Source: Acidimicrobiia bacterium (GTDB lineage Bacteria > Actinomycetota > Acidimicrobiia > UBA2766). From it: a stretch of DNA of 32,708 nt. A program made the translations under genes and the position numbers. The stretch is taken from NCBI GenBank assembly GCA_020850945.1, contig JADZDR010000076.1:1-32708 (forward strand). The letters run 5' to 3'. Below, piece by piece: positions 10,651-25,247 of this stretch (the stretch's first letter is position 1; every line of letters starts with the position of its first letter). Below the pieces are notes generated by a model, which worked only from the letters and a program-made list of their open reading frames with translations, was not told the DNA's origin and ran no database searches.

Positions 10651-10703
10651 GCAGGACAGTCTTGTGCGGCTCCCGCCCCACCGCAAAGGGCTTGCCCCCC
10701 TCG

Positions 10704-10789
10704 TTCTTGCGCGCGAACCGCGTTCTTGCGCGCGATGCGCGCCCGGCGGGAATCAGTTCGCGCGCAGGGTCGCGTTCCGCGCGCAAGAA
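10704..10789. repeat. Four-copy GCGCGC inverted-repeat cluster
   Basis: The 183-base gap between two minus-strand genes holds four copies of a motif close to TTCTTGCGCGCGAA. Two are forward (10704-10717 and 10723-10736, part of a 15-bp direct repeat) and two inverted (10755-10767, degenerate, and 10775-10789). The 12 bases at 10704-10715 and 10723-10734 are each the exact reverse complement of 10778-10789, so two alternative strong stems can form. Outer C-run (about 10695-10700) and G-run (10790-10794) can extend the stem. It probably terminates the MaoC gene transcript (minus strand), or is a REP-like element. Confidence 0.7.
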
Positions 10790-10833
10790 GGGGGCGGTTC
10801 GCAGGCCTGCAGCGAACTGCTCCGAGGTGGGGG

Positions 10834-13265: not shown

Positions 13266-14606
13266 ATGGGCATCGAACCGACCCGATCCGACGACTGGCT
13301 TCCCACGGAGACGCTCGAGTTCCCCGAGGGCTTCCTCTGGGGGACGTCGAACGCCGCCCACCAGGTCGAGGGCGGCAACGTCAACAACGACTGGTGGGCA
13401 TGGGAGCAGAAGGCGGGCAGCCCGTGCGTCGAACCGTCCGGCGACTCCACCGACTACTGGAACCGCTACGAGGAGGACCTCGACCTGTGCGCCCGCGGGG
13501 GCGGGCAGAACGTCCACCGTTTCTCGCTCGAGTGGAGCCGGATCGAGCCGGCCGAGGGGTTCGTCTCACAGGTCGCGCTCGACCACTACAAGCGTCTCTG
13601 TGACGCGATCCTCGAGCGGGGTCTCACGCCGATGGTCACGTTCCATCACTTCACGACACCGCAGTGGGCGGCGGCCGAGGGCACGTGGGCGGATGCGGCG
13701 ATCGTCGACCGCTTCGCCCGCTTCTGCGAGATCGCCGCCGCGGCTCTCGGACCGGACCGCCTCCCGTACGTCTGCACGATCAACGAACCGAGCGTGGTGG
13801 CGACCCTGGGCTATTTCGTCGGCATGTTCCCGCCGGGTGTGAACGACGCCGACGCGCAGGCGCAGGCGAGCGCGAACTTCGTGCGGGCACACGCCAAAGG
13901 GTACGGAGCGATCAAGGCGGTCGCGCCCGAGGCGCAGGTCGGGATCTCGCTCGCGATGCAGGACACGCAGGTCGCCGACCCGGACGACGACGCCGCCCGC
14001 GGCTTCGCCGAGTTCGTGGACTTCCGCATGGTCGGCTTCTTCGTCGACGCCCTGCGCACAGGCTGGATCGAGAACCTGGGGCCGGTGGTCGCTGACGAGG
14101 AGGTGCCCGGCCTCGCCGGCTGCGGCGACTTCGTCGGGGTCCAGTACTACGCACGGTTCGTCGCCGACCCGAGCTCGCCGATGTTCACGACCCCGGAGCC
14201 GGAGGGCTCGGAGATCACGCAGATGGGCTATGCGTCCTATCCGCCCGGTCTAGGCGTGTGTCTGCGGCGGGCCGCGACCACGGAGCTGCCCGTGATCGTC
14301 ACGGAGAACGGCATGGCGACCGACGACGACAAGCGTCGCTGCGCCTGGATCGCCGCCCACCTCGCCGTCTCGCACGAGGCGATGACGGAAGGCGGGGTCG
14401 ACCTGCGCGGGTACACGTACTGGTCGACGACGGACAACTTCGAGTGGGCGCTCGGTTACGGTCCCAAGTTCGGGCTGATCGGCATCGACCGCGAGAACGG
14501 TCTCGCCCGTGTGCCACGTCCGTCCCTCGACTTCTTCGACGAGATCGCCCGCACGAACCGGCTCGATCCCGCCGTCGTCGCCGAGTACGTCGGACTGGGT
14601 ACCTGA
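13266..14606 (+). CDS. GH1 family beta-glycosidase
   Basis: This 446-residue protein is a family 1 glycoside hydrolase, a retaining beta-glucosidase/galactosidase with a TIM barrel. The acid/base is Glu174 in TINEP and the nucleophile Glu347 in VTENG. The N-terminal FPEGFLWGTSNAAHQVEG block (about 19-36), HRFSLEWSRIEP (about 85-96) and the late WSTTDNFEWALGY block are typical. There is no signal peptide, so it acts in the cytoplasm on imported or internally made glycosides. No sugar transporter or LacI regulator is nearby, so the substrate is open. The gene ends inside a 42-bp perfect palindrome. Confidence 0.93.
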   Translation: MGIEPTRSDDWLPTETLEFPEGFLWGTSNAAHQVEGGNVNNDWWAWEQKAGSPCVEPSGDSTDYWNRYEEDLDLCARGGGQNVHRFSLEWSRIEPAEGFVSQVALDHYKRLCDAILERGLTPMVTFHHFTTPQWAAAEGTWADAAIVDRFARFCEIAAAALGPDRLPYVCTINEPSVVATLGYFVGMFPPGVNDADAQAQASANFVRAHAKGYGAIKAVAPEAQVGISLAMQDTQVADPDDDAARGFAEFVDFRMVGFFVDALRTGWIENLGPVVADEEVPGLAGCGDFVGVQYYARFVADPSSPMFTTPEPEGSEITQMGYASYPPGLGVCLRRAATTELPVIVTENGMATDDDKRRCAWIAAHLAVSHEAMTEGGVDLRGYTYWSTTDNFEWALGYGPKFGLIGIDRENGLARVPRPSLDFFDEIARTNRLDPAVVAEYVGLGT

Positions 14607-14636
14607 GCGGCGATATATCGCCGCTCAGGTACCCAG
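14595..14636. terminator. Perfect 42-bp palindrome at GH1 gene end
   Basis: Bases 14595-14615 are the exact reverse complement of 14616-14636, centred on GATATATC, with no mismatch and no spacer. The left arm contains the last codons and TGA stop (14604-14606) of the GH1 gene. In RNA it would fold into a hairpin of about 19 bp with a minimal loop. No T-run follows. The probable role is a strong U-less terminator separating GH1 from ilvC. Confidence 0.7.
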
Positions 14637-14706
14637 ACGCATGGTCGGACCGTGGTTGCGCTGCGTTCGGGCGGGTCCGGGGGTGCGCCGCCGCCACGCC
14701 CCGTGT

Positions 14707-14750: not shown

Positions 14751-15764
14751 GTGGCGGTCATCTACTACGAAGACGACGCAGACCTCTCCCTCATCACCTC
14801 GCGCAAGGTCGCGATCCTCGGCTACGGCAGCCAGGGCCACGCCCACGCCCTGAACCTCAGGGATTCGGGCGTCGACGTCCGCGTCGGGCTCCGGGAGGGA
14901 TCGCCGTCCTGGGCCCGTGCCGAGCGGGACGGCCTGCGCGTCGTGACCGCCGAGCAGGCGTGCGAGGAAGCAGACCTCATCATGGTCCTCGTCCCGGACC
15001 AGAACCAGAAGGACCTCTACGACGAGGTCATCGAACCCCGCCTCGAGGACGGCGACGCGCTCTTCTTCGCGCACGGATTCAACATCCACTTCCGGATCGT
15101 CGAACCGGGCGCCGGTGTCGACGTGTGCCTCATCGCGCCGAAGGGACCGGGGCACCTCGTGCGCCGCACCTACGAGGAGGACGCGGGAACACCTTCCCTC
15201 ATCGCCGTTCACAACGACGCATCCGGGAAGGCGAAGCAGCTCGGCATGAGCTACGCCAAGGCCCTCGGCGCGACTCGGGCGGGGCTGCTCGAGACCACCT
15301 TCCAGGAGGAGACGGAGACCGACCTCTTCGGCGAGCAGGCCGTCCTCTGCGGAGGCCTCACCGCCCTCATCGAGGCGGGATACGAGACGCTCGTCGAGGC
15401 CGGCTACCAGCCCGAGTCCGCCTACTTCGAGACCCTCCACGAGCTGAAGCTGATCATCGACCTCATCTACGAGGGCGGCCTCGCCCGCATGCGGTACTCG
15501 ATCAGCGAGACCGCCGAGTACGGCGACTTCACCCGTGGGCCGCGCATCATCACCGAGGAGACCAAGGCCGAGATGCGCCGCATCCTCGACGAGATCCAGA
15601 CGGGCAGGTTCGCGACCGAGTTCATCCTCGAGAACAGGGCCGGCCAGCCGACGCTGAAGGCGATGCGGCGCATCGGGGCCGAGCACCCGATCGAGATCGT
15701 GGGCCGCGAGCTGCGGTCGATGATGCCGTGGCTCGGCGCGAACCGGAACAAGGTCGAGGACTGA
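14751..15764 (+). CDS. ilvC: Ketol-acid reductoisomerase
   Basis: This 337-residue protein is class I ketol-acid reductoisomerase. It isomerises and reduces 2-acetolactate or 2-aceto-2-hydroxybutyrate with NADPH and Mg2+, the second common step to valine, leucine and isoleucine. The Rossmann motif [17 protein letters not shown] is at about residues 24-40. The LREGSPS loop that follows is the cofactor-phosphate region. [14 protein letters not shown] and the metal-ligand blocks [14 protein letters not shown] and [13 protein letters not shown] are intact. The GTG start has a good ribosome site. The gene stands alone: ilvB and ilvN, usual upstream partners in actinobacteria, are not in the window. 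serA, commonly close downstream, lies 9.5 kb away. The gene converges on a hydrolase gene. Confidence 0.97.
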
Positions 15765-16665: not shown

Positions 16666-16812
16666 GTGAACGGGATACCTCCCTGCCGTGAGTGTCGCAC
16701 GGCGATGGAGCGGGTCGGGGGCCGCCTCGGCATGCAGCTCTGGAGCGACCACTGGCGCTGTCCGGAATGCGGCTGGGAGCTGCGCCTCAGCTACGGCCGC
16801 GGCTCCGTCTGA
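16666..16812 (+). CDS. Small zinc-ribbon protein (48 aa)
   Basis: This short gene encodes 48 residues with two CxxC knuckles, CREC near residues 7-10 and CPEC near 33-36, separated by about 22 residues. This is the pattern of a zinc ribbon. The AAGGAGGT ribosome site favours GTG 16666; ATG starts at 16603 and 16609 would add about 20 acidic/polar residues. It has no signal peptide or membrane segment. Its job is unknown: such proteins often bind nucleic acid or a partner enzyme. It precedes the giant secreted caspase-like gene by 128 bases and is transcribed in the same direction. That gene has its own promoter-like sequence, so a link is unproven. Confidence 0.65.
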   Translation: MNGIPPCRECRTAMERVGGRLGMQLWSDHWRCPECGWELRLSYGRGSV

Positions 16813-16871
16813 CGCGGGATGTCCGACAACCGCCTGCCACGGACAGAACAGGAGCAAACGCCGAGAGCGGT

Positions 16872-16933
16872 TTGGGTCAGCTCGTGCGAAGAGCTATCGT
16901 TCCTTTTGTTCACTTAGGTCCACTGGGGAGGAG
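16872..16933 (+). promoter_or_regulatory. Promoter and RBS of giant secreted protein gene
   Basis: TTGGGT (16872-16877) and TATCGT (16895-16900) are separated by 17 bases, a good housekeeping promoter. The stretch 16895-16920 is unusually AT-rich for this window. The ribosome site GGAGGAG (16927-16933) lies 7 bases before GTG 16941, giving a leader of about 34 bases. Confidence 0.6.
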
Positions 16934-16940
16934 ATGCGAC

Positions 16941-19900
16941 GTGGGGAGCCTGCGAGTGAGACTCATCGCCACGCTCCTCTGCAGCGTGGTCGCCGCTGGA
17001 GTCCTGCCCATGGCCGAGGCGGACGCGGCGCCACCGAACCCGGCACCCGTGTTCCAGTCGCCGCTCTCCGTGCGCGAGGAAACAGAGCTGCACCTGGGCT
17101 GGTACAGCCTCGCGTCCCTCGACGCCAACGCCGACGGAAACCTCGACGTCGCCGCCATCGGCGCGCGAGATGACAGGGTGCGCCTGAGCGTCCTTCTCAA
17201 CCAGGGTGACGGAACCTTCGGCGCGCCGTCGTTCGCCACGGAGATCCCCGTGCACCCGGGCCATTGGCACCCGGGATACGTCTACTGGGATGCACAGCTC
17301 ATCGCGGCGGACGTCGACGACGACGGGAACGGAGACCTCGTCGCCGTCTCGACTTCGTGGGACGGTGCCCTCGTCTTCGAAGGAGACGGCACGGGCGGGT
17401 TCGCCGAGCCGGTGCAGACGCCGGGGGTTACGACGGGCACCGTCCGTGCGGGGCAGATCGACGGTACGCCGACACCGGAGCTGGTCCTCCTCGACGGCTC
17501 CGCGGTGAGGGTGCTGCGCCGGGGCGGGGACGGCACCTATGCCGAACAGACGCTGGCGTTCTCGGGGGCGGGAGCGTACGACATGTCGATCGCGGACGTG
17601 ACCGGCGATGCCCGCAACGAGATCGTGGCCTTCGGCAACCGCACGGTGCAGGTCTTCACGTTCGACGATCTCGGCAACGCCACCCGCACCGATCGAACGA
17701 TTCCCGAGACGTACGGCGGGGCCGTCTTCGAGGTCGACGGCGACGGCGACAACGACATGGTGATCTGGGGGCCCTCCCAGTACACGGTTCTCACCAACGA
17801 CGGGACCGGCGCGTTCACGGACCTGCCCAGTGTCAGCTACGAGTGGGACTACAACACGAGGCACCACGCCGAGCCGGCCGACTTCGACGGCGACGGCTCT
17901 CTCGATCTCGCCATCGAGCAGACCCAGCGTGTCAACGTCCTCCTCAACCGCGGTGGCGGCACCTTCACGCTCGACTTCTACGCCTCGCAGACACCCAACG
18001 ACGCCACGCAGCTGCTTGTCGGAACCACAGGGGCCGTCATCTGGGGTGACTTCGACGGAGTCGGCCCTCTCGACCTCGTCACCGGATCCAGCGCCCGTAG
18101 CTGGGCACGCGAGTACGGGTCGATCGCCCTCCTCCCCGGAGATCCGTCCCACCCCGGGAGGTTTCTCGCTCCGCGAGGCTGGGGTGTCGGCGCCGACGCT
18201 TCGTTCACTTACAAATCTGACGCCGCCGTGTTCGTCGACTGGAACCGCGACACCCGGCCGGATCTGGTCACAACCGCGTATCTGCCCACGGGTCACTCGC
18301 TGTTGATGTTCCCGGGGATGGGCGACGGCACCTTCGGACCCCGCCACGTCGTCACGACCCTGAGACGTTGTGCGGGCAAGCTCGGCATCGCCGACTTCGA
18401 CGGTGACACCCACCCTGACGTGCTCTGCACCCATGGTCAGTCCGTCGTGTACTTCAACGACGGAGTCGGCGGTGTGAGTGGGAGCGTCGACATCGCGCAC
18501 GTCTCGCCCAGCTTCCCGTCGAGTGACGGCGTGGGTCAGTCGTTCCGCATCACCGACGTGAACGGAGACGGCCGGCCGGACATCGTCGTCTACATGACGA
18601 ACAACTGTTGCGCCTTCGGAGAGCCGTGGATCGCCGGGCTCGGCGTCGCCCTGTACGACCCGGCGAACCCGCGGACGTTCACGGTGACGAGCGGGCTCGA
18701 CCTCCGCTACGTGCCCGGCCCCCAGGCCTTCGAGGCCGGCGACTTCGACAGCGACGGCAAGGTCGACCTCGTCACCCACTCGAGCCGGACGACATCGAAC
18801 GCCGTGGGCGAACGCTTCATCTTCTTCCGGGGCCACGGCGACGGCTCCTTCGACACCACGGTCACCCAGCCCGGCTACGTCGAGAACTGGCCGGCGATGC
18901 GTGCCGCGGATCTCGACGGGGACGGCAGGCTCGACATCGTCGGCGGCGACTGGGCCCACACGACAGTCATGCACGGGAACGGGGACGGCACCTTCACGCC
19001 CGGCGCCGCGTACGCCACCGCAGCTTCGATCCGTCTTGCCGACGTCAACGCGGATGGGCTCGCCGACCTCCTCGATCCGAGTCCGTTCGAGGGGGGGCTC
19101 GTCATCCGGACAGGCCAGGGTGACGGCACGTTCGGCGACCCGCAGCGCCTGTACCCGGGCTTCGGGTCCATGTACGACGTCCAGGCGGCCGACCTGAACG
19201 GTGATGACGCGGCGGATCTCCTCGCGGTCGGTACCTCCGCCCTCGCAGGGCTCGGGATCATCCTCCAGGAGGATCCCGGACCCGGGACTGGCGATCCGGC
19301 GAACCTCGTCGTCGAGGCGGTGAGCGCACCCGACGAGGCGGAGGCCGGGACGACCCCGGAGATCACGTACCGAGTCCGCAACACGGGCGGCGCGACGTCG
19401 GGTACCACGTGGCTCGACCGCGTCTACCTGTCGACCGATGCGTCATGGAGCAACGACGACGTCCTCGTGGCGTCGGCGGTGCGCAGCGGCGGGCTGGGAG
19501 CGGACGCGACGTACGAGCCGACGCTCCAGGGTCCCCTCCTGCCTGGTGAGGTGGGTGACTACACGGTGATCGTGCGTGCCGACGTCGAGGGCACGCTCGA
19601 CGAGACGGGCGAGGCCGACAACACGTTGGCCGCGATCGGTCAGACGTCCGTGACGGTGCCTGACCTCGGAGTCGGCGACGACGTCGACGTCACGCTGAAG
19701 GCGGGCGAGTCCCGATTCCGCCGTGTCACTCCTCCGGCCGGGGCGGACGCCCGCGTCGACGCGGCTCTCGCCGGAGAGGCCGTCGCCACGCTGCGTGCTG
19801 CGCGGGGCCGCCTCCCCTCTGTGACCGACGCCGATGTCGTGGCGTCGTCACCCGACGGCGCCGATCAGAGCGTGAGTCTGTCCGGCGAGCCGGCCGGGGA

Positions 19901-22900
19901 CTGGTTCGTCATGCTCACGGGGCGGGCGGCCGCCGCGGACGGCACCGTCGCCACCCTCTCGGCCCGGTCGGTCGGGTTCGAGATCCTCTCGACCACTCCG
20001 GACGAGGGGTCGCGGGCAGGCGACGCGACCATCACGGTCACCGGCGGGGGATTCGATGCGGGCGCGGACGTGGTTCTCGTGGGTGGCCCGGAGGACTCGC
20101 GGCGTGCGGCACGCGCGGTGCAGCGGCGCGACCGCACCCGTCTCGACGCCACGATCTCCCTGCAAGACCTCCCCCTCGGCACCTACGACGTCGTGGTCCG
20201 CAACCCCGACGGCACCGAACGCGCGGCGTCGGGCGCATTCACCGTGACGAGCGATCCGGCCGGACAGATCGACGTCGACGTGAGCGTGCCACCCAAGCTG
20301 CGTGCGTCCCAGGAATCGCCGCTTCGCATCACGGTGACGAACACGGGGGGCACCGACATCGTCGTGCCCCGCATCGTCGTCACGCCCGCCAACGCGACCG
20401 TGAAGCTCGGTGACACCCTGGAGTTCTCGGACGTCTACGTCCTCACGCCGGCCGACCTCACACCCGAGAACGGCGCGCTGCCCGTAGGGGTCATTCCGCC
20501 CCACGCGACCCGCACGGTCACGGGCAAGATCCGGGCGGGGGGCGTGGGCCGGGCGACTGTCGACGTGCGGGTCGACGCCGAAGAGGCGCAGCCGGCCGCC
20601 GACGCCGAGGTGATCGAGGCTCTCGGCATCGAGGGGCCCGACGCCGTGAGTCCCGGTGACTCGGCAGCCGTGCGCTTCGCGCTCGTCAACTCGGGTGCGT
20701 CAGCCCAGTCGGGACCGTTCGACGTCCGTGTCGGGCTGTCGCGACCCCTGAAGCACATCGAGACCGACGAGGGCGAGACGGGCGGGTTCTACGAAGGTGG
20801 CGAGTTCGTGGAGGCCGCGACCTTGAGCGTCGGTGAGGCCGTGACGCTCCAACCCGGCGGTGAGGCGACCTTCGAGGCGGCCGTGCCGGTCCCACCCCTG
20901 ACCGCCGGAGAGTGGAACTGGGCGCTCGATCCCGACGCCGACACGCTCGACCACACCGTGAACGCAGCCGAGGGCATGGCCTATCCCGACACGGAGATGC
21001 CCGTCCCCGGTGCGCCCGTCACGGTCGACGTCGAATCGATAGGTCTCGGCACGACGACGGGCGCCGTCGGCGAAGAGGAGCCCGGCGTCTTCCGGATCGA
21101 TCCCACCCTCGGGCGCGTGCGTGTCGAGCTCACGGGCCCGGCGAACGCCCGGCTTCTGGCGGGAACGTTCGACGCTCCGACCGAGAGCTTCTTCGAGCAG
21201 GAGGCGCAGGGCACGCCCCTCGTGCTCGCGCTCGAATCCGCGCGCGTACCGGACCGCTACGTCACGGTGCTGGGCGAGGGTGCGTTCAGTCTCGAGGTAG
21301 AGCCCGTGACACCGAGCATCGAGGGTGTCTCGCCGGGTGTCGTCGGGAACTCCGGTCCCGTCACCGTCCAGGTGTCCGGCGGGGCGACCCTCGACGCGAA
21401 CGGCGCGCAGCTCGTGGGGCCGGGGGGCACGCGGTCGGCCTCGGTGGTCGCCCCCGACCCCGATGCGCCCAGTCTCGCCGCCACCTTCGACACCACAGGC
21501 CTCACACCCGGGCCGTACACCCTGCGCCTCCTCCAGGGCAGCAGCCTCCTCGCCGCGAAAGAGGCGGCACTCGTCGTGAACGCAGGCGGTGCGCCGGAAT
21601 TGGCCGTCGACGTCCTCCTGCCGGACACGTTCCGTCCCGGCGAGCCGAATGCGCTCACGCTCCACTATGCGAACACGGGGACGGTCGACGCGCTCCTGCC
21701 GTTGATCACACTCCGCGCCTCTGCAGGGGGTGCGATCCGTGCATCCCGCGACGCGCAGGAGAGCGACGGCGCCGGTGCTGTCGCCGGCCTGATCCCGCCG
21801 GCCGTCGTCCCGGGTATCGCCGCCCTGCCCCCCGGCAGCGACTCGACCGTTCAGGTCTGGTACACGCCGCCCGCCGACTTCGACGGGACCATCACGATCG
21901 AGCACTGGATCGACGACTTCGCCGACCCCGCCTTCGCCGCAGAGCCGCTCGGCTGGGACGAGCTGAGCGCGGCCGTGCGGCCCGCGAACGTCGACGACGC
22001 CGCCTGGAACGACCACATCGCAGAGGAGATGGCGCGATACGGTGAGACGTGGGGGGAGCTCTACGCGTTCCTGACGTCCCAGGTCGCCGCGCAGGGGCGC
22101 GACGGGATCGAGGGGGCCGTGTTCTTCAACGGCAGGTGGCAGTGGACCGTCGCCCTCGCCGAGAAGTCGGCCTTCCCCCGACCGCGAGGCCCGGCACGCC
22201 CGTCCCTCACCCGGCCGAGTGGGGCACCACCCGCCCAGATCGCCCCGCAGGAGGAGCGGCCGGGTGACGGGATCTCCAAGACGTGGGTCGTCAACATCGT
22301 CGTGTCGGAGTTCCAGCGTGGCTTCTACTCCGCCATGCGCGACGACGGCAAGCGTGTCGAGACCCTGTTCCGCGACTTCTACAACGTCCCCGCCGCGAAC
22401 ATGAAGAACGTGCGGGACGTGGACCAGGACGACGGACTGCAGCCCGGCGAGATCCTCGACGCGATCCGCGACACCATGAACCAGGCCGACGGCGACGACA
22501 AGGTCATCATCTGGTACACGGGCCACGGCTCCGGCGAGGGCTGGTACGGCAACGACTATGACGTGGGCCGCGACTGGTACTCTCTCCGGAGCCTGAAGGC
22601 GGCGGACATCGCGGGTGCTCTCGCCGTGAACCAGACGACACCCACCCTCGTCGTCGACGACTCATGCTTCAGTTGGGGCCAGATGGGCAGGATCGCCAAC
22701 GCGAATGTCGCCACGCTCGCCACCGCACCGAACATGGTCTACGAGAAGGACACGATCGCGGACGCGTTCACGAAGGAAGCCCTCCTCGACCCGAAGGCCG
22801 ACTGGGCCGATCTCGCCCAGAGGGCGTCCGACCGCAAGCGGGGTCTCCGGAATGCGGGCACGGCGACTACGGGTGAATGCGAGACCTGGTACCAACAGCG

Positions 22901-25247
22901 GGATGCCGGAAAGTGGGACGTTCGCCGGCGCAGTCGCGGCTACCTCGCCATGCTCTCCGACGACGAGTACGCGGCACTGGAACGGGAGTACCAGGCCATC
23001 TACGACGCGTGGCGGACAGATCCGTCACGTCCAAACGGCACGGGAGCGCATCCGGAGCTCCAACAGCAGATCGAGTTCCGCGCGGCAAGCAACGCATGGC
23101 AGGAGGCGAATCCCTTCGAAGCCCGCCTCACGTCGGACAACCTGCGAACCCTGCACCTCGACCAGAAGGACCGATATCCGCACTTCGCCCCCTGGATGAA
23201 CCTCAAGGGCATGGGCGGCTTCAAGCCCGGCGCCGGGAACCTCGACATCAAGCCCGAGGCGATCGGCCGCGAGGCATTGCAGAGGATCCAGGCACCCCCG
23301 ACCGGGAGCGAAGGCAAGAGCACGGCCAGGGGAGAGTCTCCGATCTGTCCGACGACACGTTCGACCGACGTGCACGTCGACATCGAGGTGGTCGGCTCCG
23401 TCGACCCCAACGAGATCCTCGGTCCGGGCGGGCAGGGGCCCGAGAGGTGGGTGCCGCGGGGCTCGACGCTCGACTACACCGTGCGCTTCGAGAACCTCGG
23501 TCCGGGATCCGATGTCATTCCGCCCGGGCAGTCGCCGGCGACGGCCCCGGCGACGTCGGTCGTGGTCACGCTACCCCTCGACAGCGACCTCGACCTCGAC
23601 GCGGTGTCACTCGGCGACATCCGGTTCGGAGCGGTCGATGTGGCCGTTCCGGCGGGTCGCGACGCGTTCGCCGTCAGGCTCGGCGACGATGCGGGCGAGT
23701 ACGTCCCACCGCTGGGCGACGTGCTCGACATCCAAGGCGTGCTCGACCGTGATGCACGCGTGGTCACGTGGACGTTCGTCACGATCGACCCCGCGTCGGG
23801 GACGCAGGACGACCGTCCCGACGCCGGCTTCCTGCCTCCGGAGGACGGGACAGGGGCGGGACAGGGGTACGTGCAGCTCGCCGTTCGCCCCGAGGCCGAT
23901 GCCCCCGCCGGGACACTGGTCGAGGCGCAGGCGTCCATCGTGTTCGACACGAACGCGGCGATCGCCACGAACACGTGGATGAACACGCTCGACGCTGATG
24001 CCCCGGCCGTCACTATGACCTCCCCCGACCTCTTCAGCCCGGCCGAGATCCCCCTTGCGTGGACGGCGACGGACGACGGTTCGGGGGTGGCCGCCTACGA
24101 CGTGTACGTGGGTCGTGACGGGGCGCCGCTGACACTGTGGCAGGCCGGCCTGGTGGACACGAGCACGGTCTATCCCGGGGCGGTGGGGCACTCCTACGCG
24201 TTCGCGGTGTCCGCGCGGGACTCTGTGGGGCATGCGGGGCCGGTCCCGGCCGAGGCGGATGCGGTCACCTTCGTCCCGGTGCCCAACGTCGCGCCCGTGT
24301 GCGAGGCGACCGGTGCCGAGACCGCGGAGGACACGGCGGTGACCGTGACGGTCACCTGCACCGACGAGTCGCCTGCGACCCTGTCGTACACGGTCGTGGA
24401 CGGGTCCGGGCCGGGGCACGGCACGATCGAGGCGGTCGGCGGCGGCGCGTTCCTCTACGCCCCCTCACCGGACTTCAACGGCACCGATTCGTTCGAAGTG
24501 GTCGCCACGGACGAAGGCGGCGTCCCTTCCGCGCCGGCGGGTGTCGCCCTGACCGTGACACCCGTGAACGACGTGCCGTCGTGCGACACGCTCTCCGTGG
24601 CGGTCCCCGCGGGCCAGGAGGTGTCGGTGCCGCCTTCATGCCGGGACCGGGACGGCGACGCCCTCACCTTCTCGGTCGCCGCTCAGGGAACAGCGGGTCT
24701 GGCGTCCGTGGCCGAAGGGGACCTCCTGTACGCGGCGGGCCCGACGCCCGGTGGCGACACCTTCACCTATGTCGCAGCCGACGGTTCGTCGACGAGTGCC
24801 CCGGCCGACGTGAACGTCACGATCGAACCCGCATCAGGCTCGGGTGGCCTCACACCGGCCGTCGCCTTCGCGAGGTTGCGTCCGCGTCAACGCGGCGGGC
24901 CGACCGTGGTCGTAGCCAGGGGTTCGTTCCGGCTCGAACCTGGCCGCAGCGTCGCCTGCGGAGACGACGTCACCGTTTCCCTCGACGGCACCCGCATGCA
25001 CGAGACGCTGTCCGGCAGGAAGTTCGTGCGGTTCTTCGACTGGTGCGTGTACACGTCGCCCCGGGGCTTCCTCGACTGGTTCGCTTACGACATGAGAGAC
25101 GGAATCTGGAGCATGTTCGGGACAGGCCGGTCGGTCACCCTCGCCGGACTCGGGACCCCGGCCGAGTTCGGGCTGACGATCGGCGACGACTCGGGTGCCG
25201 TCTCGGTTCCGTTGCGCCGCGCGGGCAGGTGGTGGGTCCACCCATGA
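16941..25247 (+). CDS. Giant secreted FG-GAP / caspase-like protein
   Basis: This 2,768-residue protein starts at GTG 16941 with a signal peptide (basic SLRVR, hydrophobic core to about residue 23, cleavage near AEADAA). Approximate domain order: fourteen FG-GAP/VCBS units (61-760) with calcium-type DxDxDG loops; a CARDB-like module (787-905); a region resembling pre-peptidase domains (905-1010); IPT/TIG-like modules (about 1012-1105 and 1454-1550) with further immunoglobulin-like modules between and after; a Pro-rich linker; a caspase-like domain (1780-1990); a helical charged segment (about 1990-2130); a SVDPNE-type module (about 2150-2350); a fibronectin-like module (2360-2450); two cadherin-like modules (2450-2632); and an unrecognised C-terminal domain with two Cys. 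The dyad is His1862 in YTGHGSGEG and Cys1909 in VVDDSCFSW, the clan CD pattern. No LPXTG or C-terminal membrane segment is present, so it is probably released or bound non-covalently. Substrate unknown. Confidence 0.85.
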   Translation: MGSLRVRLIATLLCSVVAAGVLPMAEADAAPPNPAPVFQSPLSVREETELHLGWYSLASLDANADGNLDVAAIGARDDRVRLSVLLNQGDGTFGAPSFATEIPVHPGHWHPGYVYWDAQLIAADVDDDGNGDLVAVSTSWDGALVFEGDGTGGFAEPVQTPGVTTGTVRAGQIDGTPTPELVLLDGSAVRVLRRGGDGTYAEQTLAFSGAGAYDMSIADVTGDARNEIVAFGNRTVQVFTFDDLGNATRTDRTIPETYGGAVFEVDGDGDNDMVIWGPSQYTVLTNDGTGAFTDLPSVSYEWDYNTRHHAEPADFDGDGSLDLAIEQTQRVNVLLNRGGGTFTLDFYASQTPNDATQLLVGTTGAVIWGDFDGVGPLDLVTGSSARSWAREYGSIALLPGDPSHPGRFLAPRGWGVGADASFTYKSDAAVFVDWNRDTRPDLVTTAYLPTGHSLLMFPGMGDGTFGPRHVVTTLRRCAGKLGIADFDGDTHPDVLCTHGQSVVYFNDGVGGVSGSVDIAHVSPSFPSSDGVGQSFRITDVNGDGRPDIVVYMTNNCCAFGEPWIAGLGVALYDPANPRTFTVTSGLDLRYVPGPQAFEAGDFDSDGKVDLVTHSSRTTSNAVGERFIFFRGHGDGSFDTTVTQPGYVENWPAMRAADLDGDGRLDIVGGDWAHTTVMHGNGDGTFTPGAAYATAASIRLADVNADGLADLLDPSPFEGGLVIRTGQGDGTFGDPQRLYPGFGSMYDVQAADLNGDDAADLLAVGTSALAGLGIILQEDPGPGTGDPANLVVEAVSAPDEAEAGTTPEITYRVRNTGGATSGTTWLDRVYLSTDASWSNDDVLVASAVRSGGLGADATYEPTLQGPLLPGEVGDYTVIVRADVEGTLDETGEADNTLAAIGQTSVTVPDLGVGDDVDVTLKAGESRFRRVTPPAGADARVDAALAGEAVATLRAARGRLPSVTDADVVASSPDGADQSVSLSGEPAGDWFVMLTGRAAAADGTVATLSARSVGFEILSTTPDEGSRAGDATITVTGGGFDAGADVVLVGGPEDSRRAARAVQRRDRTRLDATISLQDLPLGTYDVVVRNPDGTERAASGAFTVTSDPAGQIDVDVSVPPKLRASQESPLRITVTNTGGTDIVVPRIVVTPANATVKLGDTLEFSDVYVLTPADLTPENGALPVGVIPPHATRTVTGKIRAGGVGRATVDVRVDAEEAQPAADAEVIEALGIEGPDAVSPGDSAAVRFALVNSGASAQSGPFDVRVGLSRPLKHIETDEGETGGFYEGGEFVEAATLSVGEAVTLQPGGEATFEAAVPVPPLTAGEWNWALDPDADTLDHTVNAAEGMAYPDTEMPVPGAPVTVDVESIGLGTTTGAVGEEEPGVFRIDPTLGRVRVELTGPANARLLAGTFDAPTESFFEQEAQGTPLVLALESARVPDRYVTVLGEGAFSLEVEPVTPSIEGVSPGVVGNSGPVTVQVSGGATLDANGAQLVGPGGTRSASVVAPDPDAPSLAATFDTTGLTPGPYTLRLLQGSSLLAAKEAALVVNAGGAPELAVDVLLPDTFRPGEPNALTLHYANTGTVDALLPLITLRASAGGAIRASRDAQESDGAGAVAGLIPPAVVPGIAALPPGSDSTVQVWYTPPADFDGTITIEHWIDDFADPAFAAEPLGWDELSAAVRPANVDDAAWNDHIAEEMARYGETWGELYAFLTSQVAAQGRDGIEGAVFFNGRWQWTVALAEKSAFPRPRGPARPSLTRPSGAPPAQIAPQEERPGDGISKTWVVNIVVSEFQRGFYSAMRDDGKRVETLFRDFYNVPAANMKNVRDVDQDDGLQPGEILDAIRDTMNQADGDDKVIIWYTGHGSGEGWYGNDYDVGRDWYSLRSLKAADIAGALAVNQTTPTLVVDDSCFSWGQMGRIANANVATLATAPNMVYEKDTIADAFTKEALLDPKADWADLAQRASDRKRGLRNAGTATTGECETWYQQRDAGKWDVRRRSRGYLAMLSDDEYAALEREYQAIYDAWRTDPSRPNGTGAHPELQQQIEFRAASNAWQEANPFEARLTSDNLRTLHLDQKDRYPHFAPWMNLKGMGGFKPGAGNLDIKPEAIGREALQRIQAPPTGSEGKSTARGESPICPTTRSTDVHVDIEVVGSVDPNEILGPGGQGPERWVPRGSTLDYTVRFENLGPGSDVIPPGQSPATAPATSVVVTLPLDSDLDLDAVSLGDIRFGAVDVAVPAGRDAFAVRLGDDAGEYVPPLGDVLDIQGVLDRDARVVTWTFVTIDPASGTQDDRPDAGFLPPEDGTGAGQGYVQLAVRPEADAPAGTLVEAQASIVFDTNAAIATNTWMNTLDADAPAVTMTSPDLFSPAEIPLAWTATDDGSGVAAYDVYVGRDGAPLTLWQAGLVDTSTVYPGAVGHSYAFAVSARDSVGHAGPVPAEADAVTFVPVPNVAPVCEATGAETAEDTAVTVTVTCTDESPATLSYTVVDGSGPGHGTIEAVGGGAFLYAPSPDFNGTDSFEVVATDEGGVPSAPAGVALTVTPVNDVPSCDTLSVAVPAGQEVSVPPSCRDRDGDALTFSVAAQGTAGLASVAEGDLLYAAGPTPGGDTFTYVAADGSSTSAPADVNVTIEPASGSGGLTPAVAFARLRPRQRGGPTVVVARGSFRLEPGRSVACGDDVTVSLDGTRMHETLSGRKFVRFFDWCVYTSPRGFLDWFAYDMRDGIWSMFGTGRSVTLAGLGTPAEFGLTIGDDSGAVSVPLRRAGRWWVHP
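17121..19230 (+). repeat. Fourteen FG-GAP/VCBS repeat units
   Basis: In-frame repeats of irregular length (about 40-65 residues) each carry a loop such as DANADGNLD (residue 61), DVDDDGNGD, DFDGDGSLD, DFDGVGPLD (370), DWNRDTRPD (433), DVNGDGRPD, DLDGDGRLD and DLNGDDAAD (751), followed by a hydrophobic strand. Units 3, 4 and 5 (QIDGTPTPE, DVTGDARNE, EVDGDGDND) are degenerate. Fourteen units would make two seven-bladed beta-propellers. Confidence 0.75.

Follow-up and report, generated by a model that had tools for sequence, protein, structure and literature searches.

A perfect loopless 42-bp palindrome at the end of a GH1 gene belongs to a dispersed, probably mobile family of about 60 near-identical copies in an Acidimicrobiia genome

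The window analyzed here, a stretch of 32,708 nucleotides from an Acidimicrobiia bacterium (contig JADZDR010000076.1), contains a perfect palindrome within which a GH1 glycosidase gene ends, and about 58-60 near-identical copies of this palindrome, with sharp 42-bp edges and mostly unrelated flanks, are scattered through the same genome. Our analysis indicates that the palindrome is probably a lineage-specific, dispersed, non-autonomous and recently amplified insertion element of the REP kind. On the sequence comparisons described below, its mobility is well supported, although not proven; it may double as a 3′-end hairpin, and a role as a terminator is plausible.

Inverted-repeat analysis of the window placed the spacerless palindrome at 14595-14636, with arms that are 100% complementary over 21 nt and have 0 nt between them. 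Its left arm opens with CTG GGT ACC TGA (14595-14606), the Leu-Gly-Thr-stop of the GH1 ORF; the first-pass annotation, which described a perfect 42-bp spacerless palindrome whose left half includes this gene's final three sense codons and its stop, was therefore exact. The features of this region are as follows.

13266-14606, plus strand: GH1 glycosidase gene (Pfam Glyco_hydro_1, E 3.4e-78)
14585-14594, no strand: left flank, the region of the weak mirrored motif and edge pairing in other copies
14595-14636, no strand: palindromic element, one of about 58-60 genome copies
14595-14615, plus strand: left arm, 21 nt
14604-14606, plus strand: GH1 stop codon, a TGA that the palindrome provides
14616-14636, minus strand: right arm, 21 nt, exact reverse complement of the left arm
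14637-14646, no strand: right flank, counterpart of the left flank
14751-15764, plus strand: ilvC, ketol-acid reductoisomerase, starting 114 nt past the palindrome

The second-longest spacerless arms in the window measure 7 nt, and 20 mononucleotide shuffles produced spacerless arms of 13 nt at most, compared with 21 nt in the real sequence; this single palindrome is beyond chance. As RNA, the 42-bp core forms a 19-bp stem capped by a 4-nt loop (-40.3 kcal/mol), and its 121-nt context has a fold z of -5.31. The window also holds, at 10696-10797 between two genes, a 40-nt imperfect inverted repeat (80% complementary, 22-nt spacer) with a sequence unrelated to the 42-bp palindrome, and at 16692-25247 a very large ORF of 2851 codons with FG-GAP, CARDB and cadherin-like domains.

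The first-pass annotation had proposed a genome search for further copies, and this check proved decisive. A 161-bp query from the palindrome region gave 80 matches in the genome of origin (3.91 Mb in 97 contigs, 98.5% complete); the 22-bp centre gave 58 at up to 3 mismatches (reversed control, 0), and the 21-nt arm gave 60 forward and 58 reverse matches. The resulting count is a lower bound, because in six contigs the end lies no more than about 100 bp from a full or half copy. Surroundings were read for 54 of the at least 58 copies, the remainder lying beyond the matches listed or being cut by contig ends. The 53 complete copies comprise 43 that are perfect in every letter, 9 with one change and 1 (L077) with two mutually compensating changes; the one additional copy is severed by a contig end. 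Divergence this low suggests recent spread. No parent element with separated arms was found among the arm matches listed for the 97 contigs, and the copies listed show no inverted pairs at short regular spacing, a trait of REPINs and BIMEs, the closest pairs among them being at least 552 bp apart.

Flanks are mostly unrelated between copies, and the only clear exception (L033 and L036), apart from a short stretch at L047, complicates the argument from low divergence. The L033 and L036 copies stand behind unrelated genes and have in common, on each side, about 20-50 nt of diverged flank around an identical core; a similar pattern extends over a short stretch at the two L047 copies. Since the flanks have diverged and the cores have not, the core may also be maintained by selection or by exchange between copies, a hint that youth is not the sole cause of its constancy. 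At L033 and L036, one copying event appears to have carried the flanks along. A first impression from blast that the L047 copies lie in a tandem duplication was rejected, as the match coordinates correspond to a repeat inside the gene between them and the preceding genes do not align.

The palindrome was found in 0 of 99 genomes of relatives at up to 2 mismatches, a set that includes a congener (G001). The congener's GH1 orthologue (88% amino-acid identity) has no palindrome and ends VGQGTITG, where the gene in the window ends VGLGT. For ten copies, the congener sequence compared included a match to one or both flanks, and only one of these sites aligns straight through: ffh and its neighbor align across the site, and the congener shows a gap of 49 columns at the palindrome. 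The nearest flanks at this site have diverged, and, as it is the only aligned site, loss in the congener instead of insertion here could also account for the gap. Other sites give a less tidy picture: at L057 the two flanking genes nearly touch in the congener, at L039 the region is rearranged, and behind gyrB a different repeated sequence takes the place of the palindrome. That repeat, which starts CTAGGTGGCTGGTGTGAAAC, begins at the gyrB stop codon (L098:3372-3463) and recurs elsewhere (L079, L080 and L122), often at contig ends; it may be the terminal part of a longer mobile element. No palindrome family of the same kind was seen in 229 kb of congener sequence. In that the copies barely differ and are missing from the congener, the first-pass suggestion of recent formation holds; rather than arising in place from the sequence at the GH1 gene end, however, the palindrome is one member of a dispersed family.

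Beyond these relatives, 0 stretches in IMG/VR share the palindrome, and the exact 22-mer centre has one foreign match among GTDB contigs, in the filamentous cyanobacterium CCP3 (L066). This is a single perfect palindrome, probably a coincidence rather than a member of the family, because its outer arms differ and a search allowing up to 3 mismatches gave no second match in that genome. Two other genomes contain palindromic repeats of their own. G005, a genome of the same class in one contig, has a family of palindromes that contain a 1-nt loop and occur as inverted pairs with a spacing of about 54-63 bp (L165:942-1024, L165:15105-15189 and L166:9648-9730), and one match to the Y1 transposase family PF01797, apparently a REPIN/RAYT system. 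G003 (L094 and L099) has short hairpin repeats, CCCCGCCAAACGCGGG, in REPIN-like pairs about 63 bp apart, and no PF01797 match.

Genes around the 54 loci were called with a purpose-made dicodon caller, and tRNA genes, which are invisible to it, were added separately. By this caller 91% of the sampled DNA is coding, and 27 copies lie between tandem genes, 15 between convergent genes, 7 between divergent genes and 5 at contig edges; 53 of the 54 lie outside genes or overlap a gene end by at most 12 nt. Tandem copies (n = 26, excluding L025, which the caller classed as tandem although Pfam and solved homologues place it within a gene) lie at median distances of 18 nt from the upstream stop and 110 nt from the next start, and 23 of them are closer to the stop. 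A called gene receives its TGA stop codon from 11 of the 54 copies, and two copies follow tRNA genes (22 nt past tRNA-Tyr and 29 nt past tRNA-Glu). Both neighbors are Pfam-confirmed in five of the seven divergent gaps; in a sixth (L039) both match the congener, and in the seventh (L065) the neighbors match no Pfam family.

The exceptional copy at L025 lies within a conserved enzyme gene, encoding an SDR39U1/SulA-type epimerase (L025:3866-4840), to which the palindrome contributes 14 in-frame codons. Around it the protein has 31 residues compared with 7 in the solved homologue 3oh8, and 36 compared with 6 in the solved homologue 4b4o, so more than the palindrome alone differs at this locus.

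Much of this placement would also be expected of a functional 3′-end sequence, that is, a strong bidirectional terminator or RNA-protecting hairpin kept by selection and spread through its usefulness. The short distances behind stop codons and tRNA genes, the 15 convergent copies, the very stable hairpin and the identical cores in diverged flanks at L033 and L036 are consistent with such a role, and U-tracts are reported not always to be needed for termination (PMC8355165). As the origin of the family, however, we consider this rather unlikely. Seven copies lie in divergent gaps, five of them confirmed by Pfam and one more through the congener, and one is inside a gene; the hairpin is followed by at most 5 T per 10 nt, with 3 or fewer in 94 of 106 flanks; and the palindrome is absent from the congener. 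Selection for RNA pairing would, moreover, allow compensated changes, whereas the 9 singly changed copies are altered on one side only and a single copy has a compensated pair. In favor of the reading as an insertion element, the placement behind stop codons agrees with that published for REPs.

Alignment of the copies outward from the centre shows nearly invariant columns 1-21, followed at column 22 by an A/T base in 105 of 107 flanks. Over columns 23-32 there is a weak motif, W S N G N G Y G T G in the outward direction, which appears in mirror image on the two sides; from column 33 the flanks look like intergenic background. The two sides also pair with each other more often than expected from composition at column 22 (47 of 53, 32.3 expected), column 23 (33 of 53, 20.3 expected) and column 24 (25 of 52, 14.5 expected), and a control with slid partners showed a weak excess at most. 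The window copy has unpaired edge bases (A...A). Such edge covariation might have been left by the insertion target or by templated repair, or might reflect selection that favors a longer stem. Target-site duplications, a classical MITE trait, are lacking in 48 of 51 copies, the other three showing 2, 3 and 4 nt; within 10 nt of the palindrome, the 106 flanks contain GTAG twice, CTAC once, and CGTC and GACG five times each.

A search for a copying enzyme in the genome of origin gave 0 matches to the Y1 transposase family (PF01797; positive in 5 of 14 control genomes) and 0 to reverse transcriptase (PF00078; positive in 3 of 14). These absences rule against a RAYT-driven REP and against spread of a retro-copied hairpin by reverse transcriptase. 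They also leave the insertion-element reading with no candidate mobilizing enzyme, which, together with the general lack of target duplications and the reliance on one congener site with diverged flanks, weighs against it. In its favor are the number and near-identity of the copies, their sharp edges in mostly unrelated surroundings, the ffh gap and the GH1 orthologue of a congener that has no palindrome, and the in-frame copy at L025.

If the palindrome is an insertion element, each copy would be an inserted unit of 42-44 bp that makes no target duplication, and the target would be a context with weak mirror symmetry around two central A/T bases. Spread would proceed through an enzyme or a templated copying process, and surviving insertions would be concentrated a short way past stop codons and tRNA genes; there the hairpin (-40 kcal/mol as RNA) and the TGA that it contains in one frame would be harmless or be used as a bidirectional 3′-end hairpin. 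In the window, the insertion would have hit the final codons of the GH1 gene and given that gene a new C-terminus and stop. A more specific proposal, which we advance only tentatively, is that the mobile element consists of nothing but the perfect loopless palindrome and spreads, with neither Y1 transposase nor target duplication, by hairpin-templated copying into the centres of tiny palindromic sites, the covarying pairs outside the core, above all at column 22, being the imprint of this mechanism. With its youth and near-invariance, in a genome that yielded no Y1 transposase, such a family would offer a clean system in which to look for a second bacterial route of hairpin copying. It also illustrates how a tiny repeat can give genes their stop codons and, once, 14 internal codons.

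The symmetry of the palindrome, its genome-wide dispersal and the mirrored flank motif out to column 32 would suit a DNA site for a chromosome-organizing or regulatory protein; the first-pass annotation had mentioned a protein site. This idea gained no support and appears quite improbable: 42 invariant positions are long for such a site, and sites of this type are usually common to a genus, whereas this sequence is absent from 99 relatives. Origin in situ, from an imperfect palindrome at the gene end corrected by gene conversion between its arms, is highly improbable. Conversion, also raised by the first-pass annotation, may act on the edges, as the covarying pairs at columns 22-24 and the compensated double change in the core of L077 suggest, but it cannot yield one identical 42-letter sequence at about 60 places whose flanks are mostly unrelated, and as the origin of the window copy it is refuted by the other copies. 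Least probable of all is a library-linker or assembly artefact, the latter another early concern: some sequencing linkers are perfect palindromes, and the sharp edges and the six contig ends near copies or half copies fit such a source, but the copies carry private point changes and a common flank motif and avoid coding DNA almost completely in sequence that is about 91% coding, so an artefact is very unlikely.

Among the titles and abstract openings found by literature searches, none describes a matching element, and one may nevertheless have appeared in print. The closest parallels are the REPs of the GTAG and CGTC super-families, short dispersed palindromes, mostly intergenic, that are described as lying close to the 3′ ends of tandem or convergent genes, providing stop codons and sometimes occurring inside genes (PMC3733652); the present palindrome resembles them in all these respects but was seen with no GTAG or CGTC foot tag, no loop and no head-to-head dimers, and its roughly 60 copies are nearly invariant in a genome with no Y1 transposase found. 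REP-like palindromes are thought to be copied in trans by RAYT transposases, and REPINs are likewise non-autonomous palindromic repeats (PMC3116915, PMC2817692), but they form inverted pairs, whereas single palindromes occur here in a genome with no PF01797 match. The palindromic elements of Rickettsia are inserted in frame into genes (PMC3733652), as is the copy at L025, but nearly all copies of the 42-bp unit described here lie outside genes. Intrinsic terminators that lack a U-tract (PMC8355165) similarly place a stable hairpin close behind stop codons; here, however, the same 42 letters occur at every site, including divergent gaps and one gene interior. Mitochondria, too, have mobile GC clusters and hairpin elements, small repeats of palindromic or hairpin form to which mobility or invasion has been ascribed, though in organelle DNA (PMC4478555, PMC2800124). 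The palindrome thus behaves like a REP-type palindromic insertion element yet lacks the foot tag and the RAYT of the described families, and its loopless perfection, covarying edge pairs and missing RAYT make it an unusual variant among REP-like elements.
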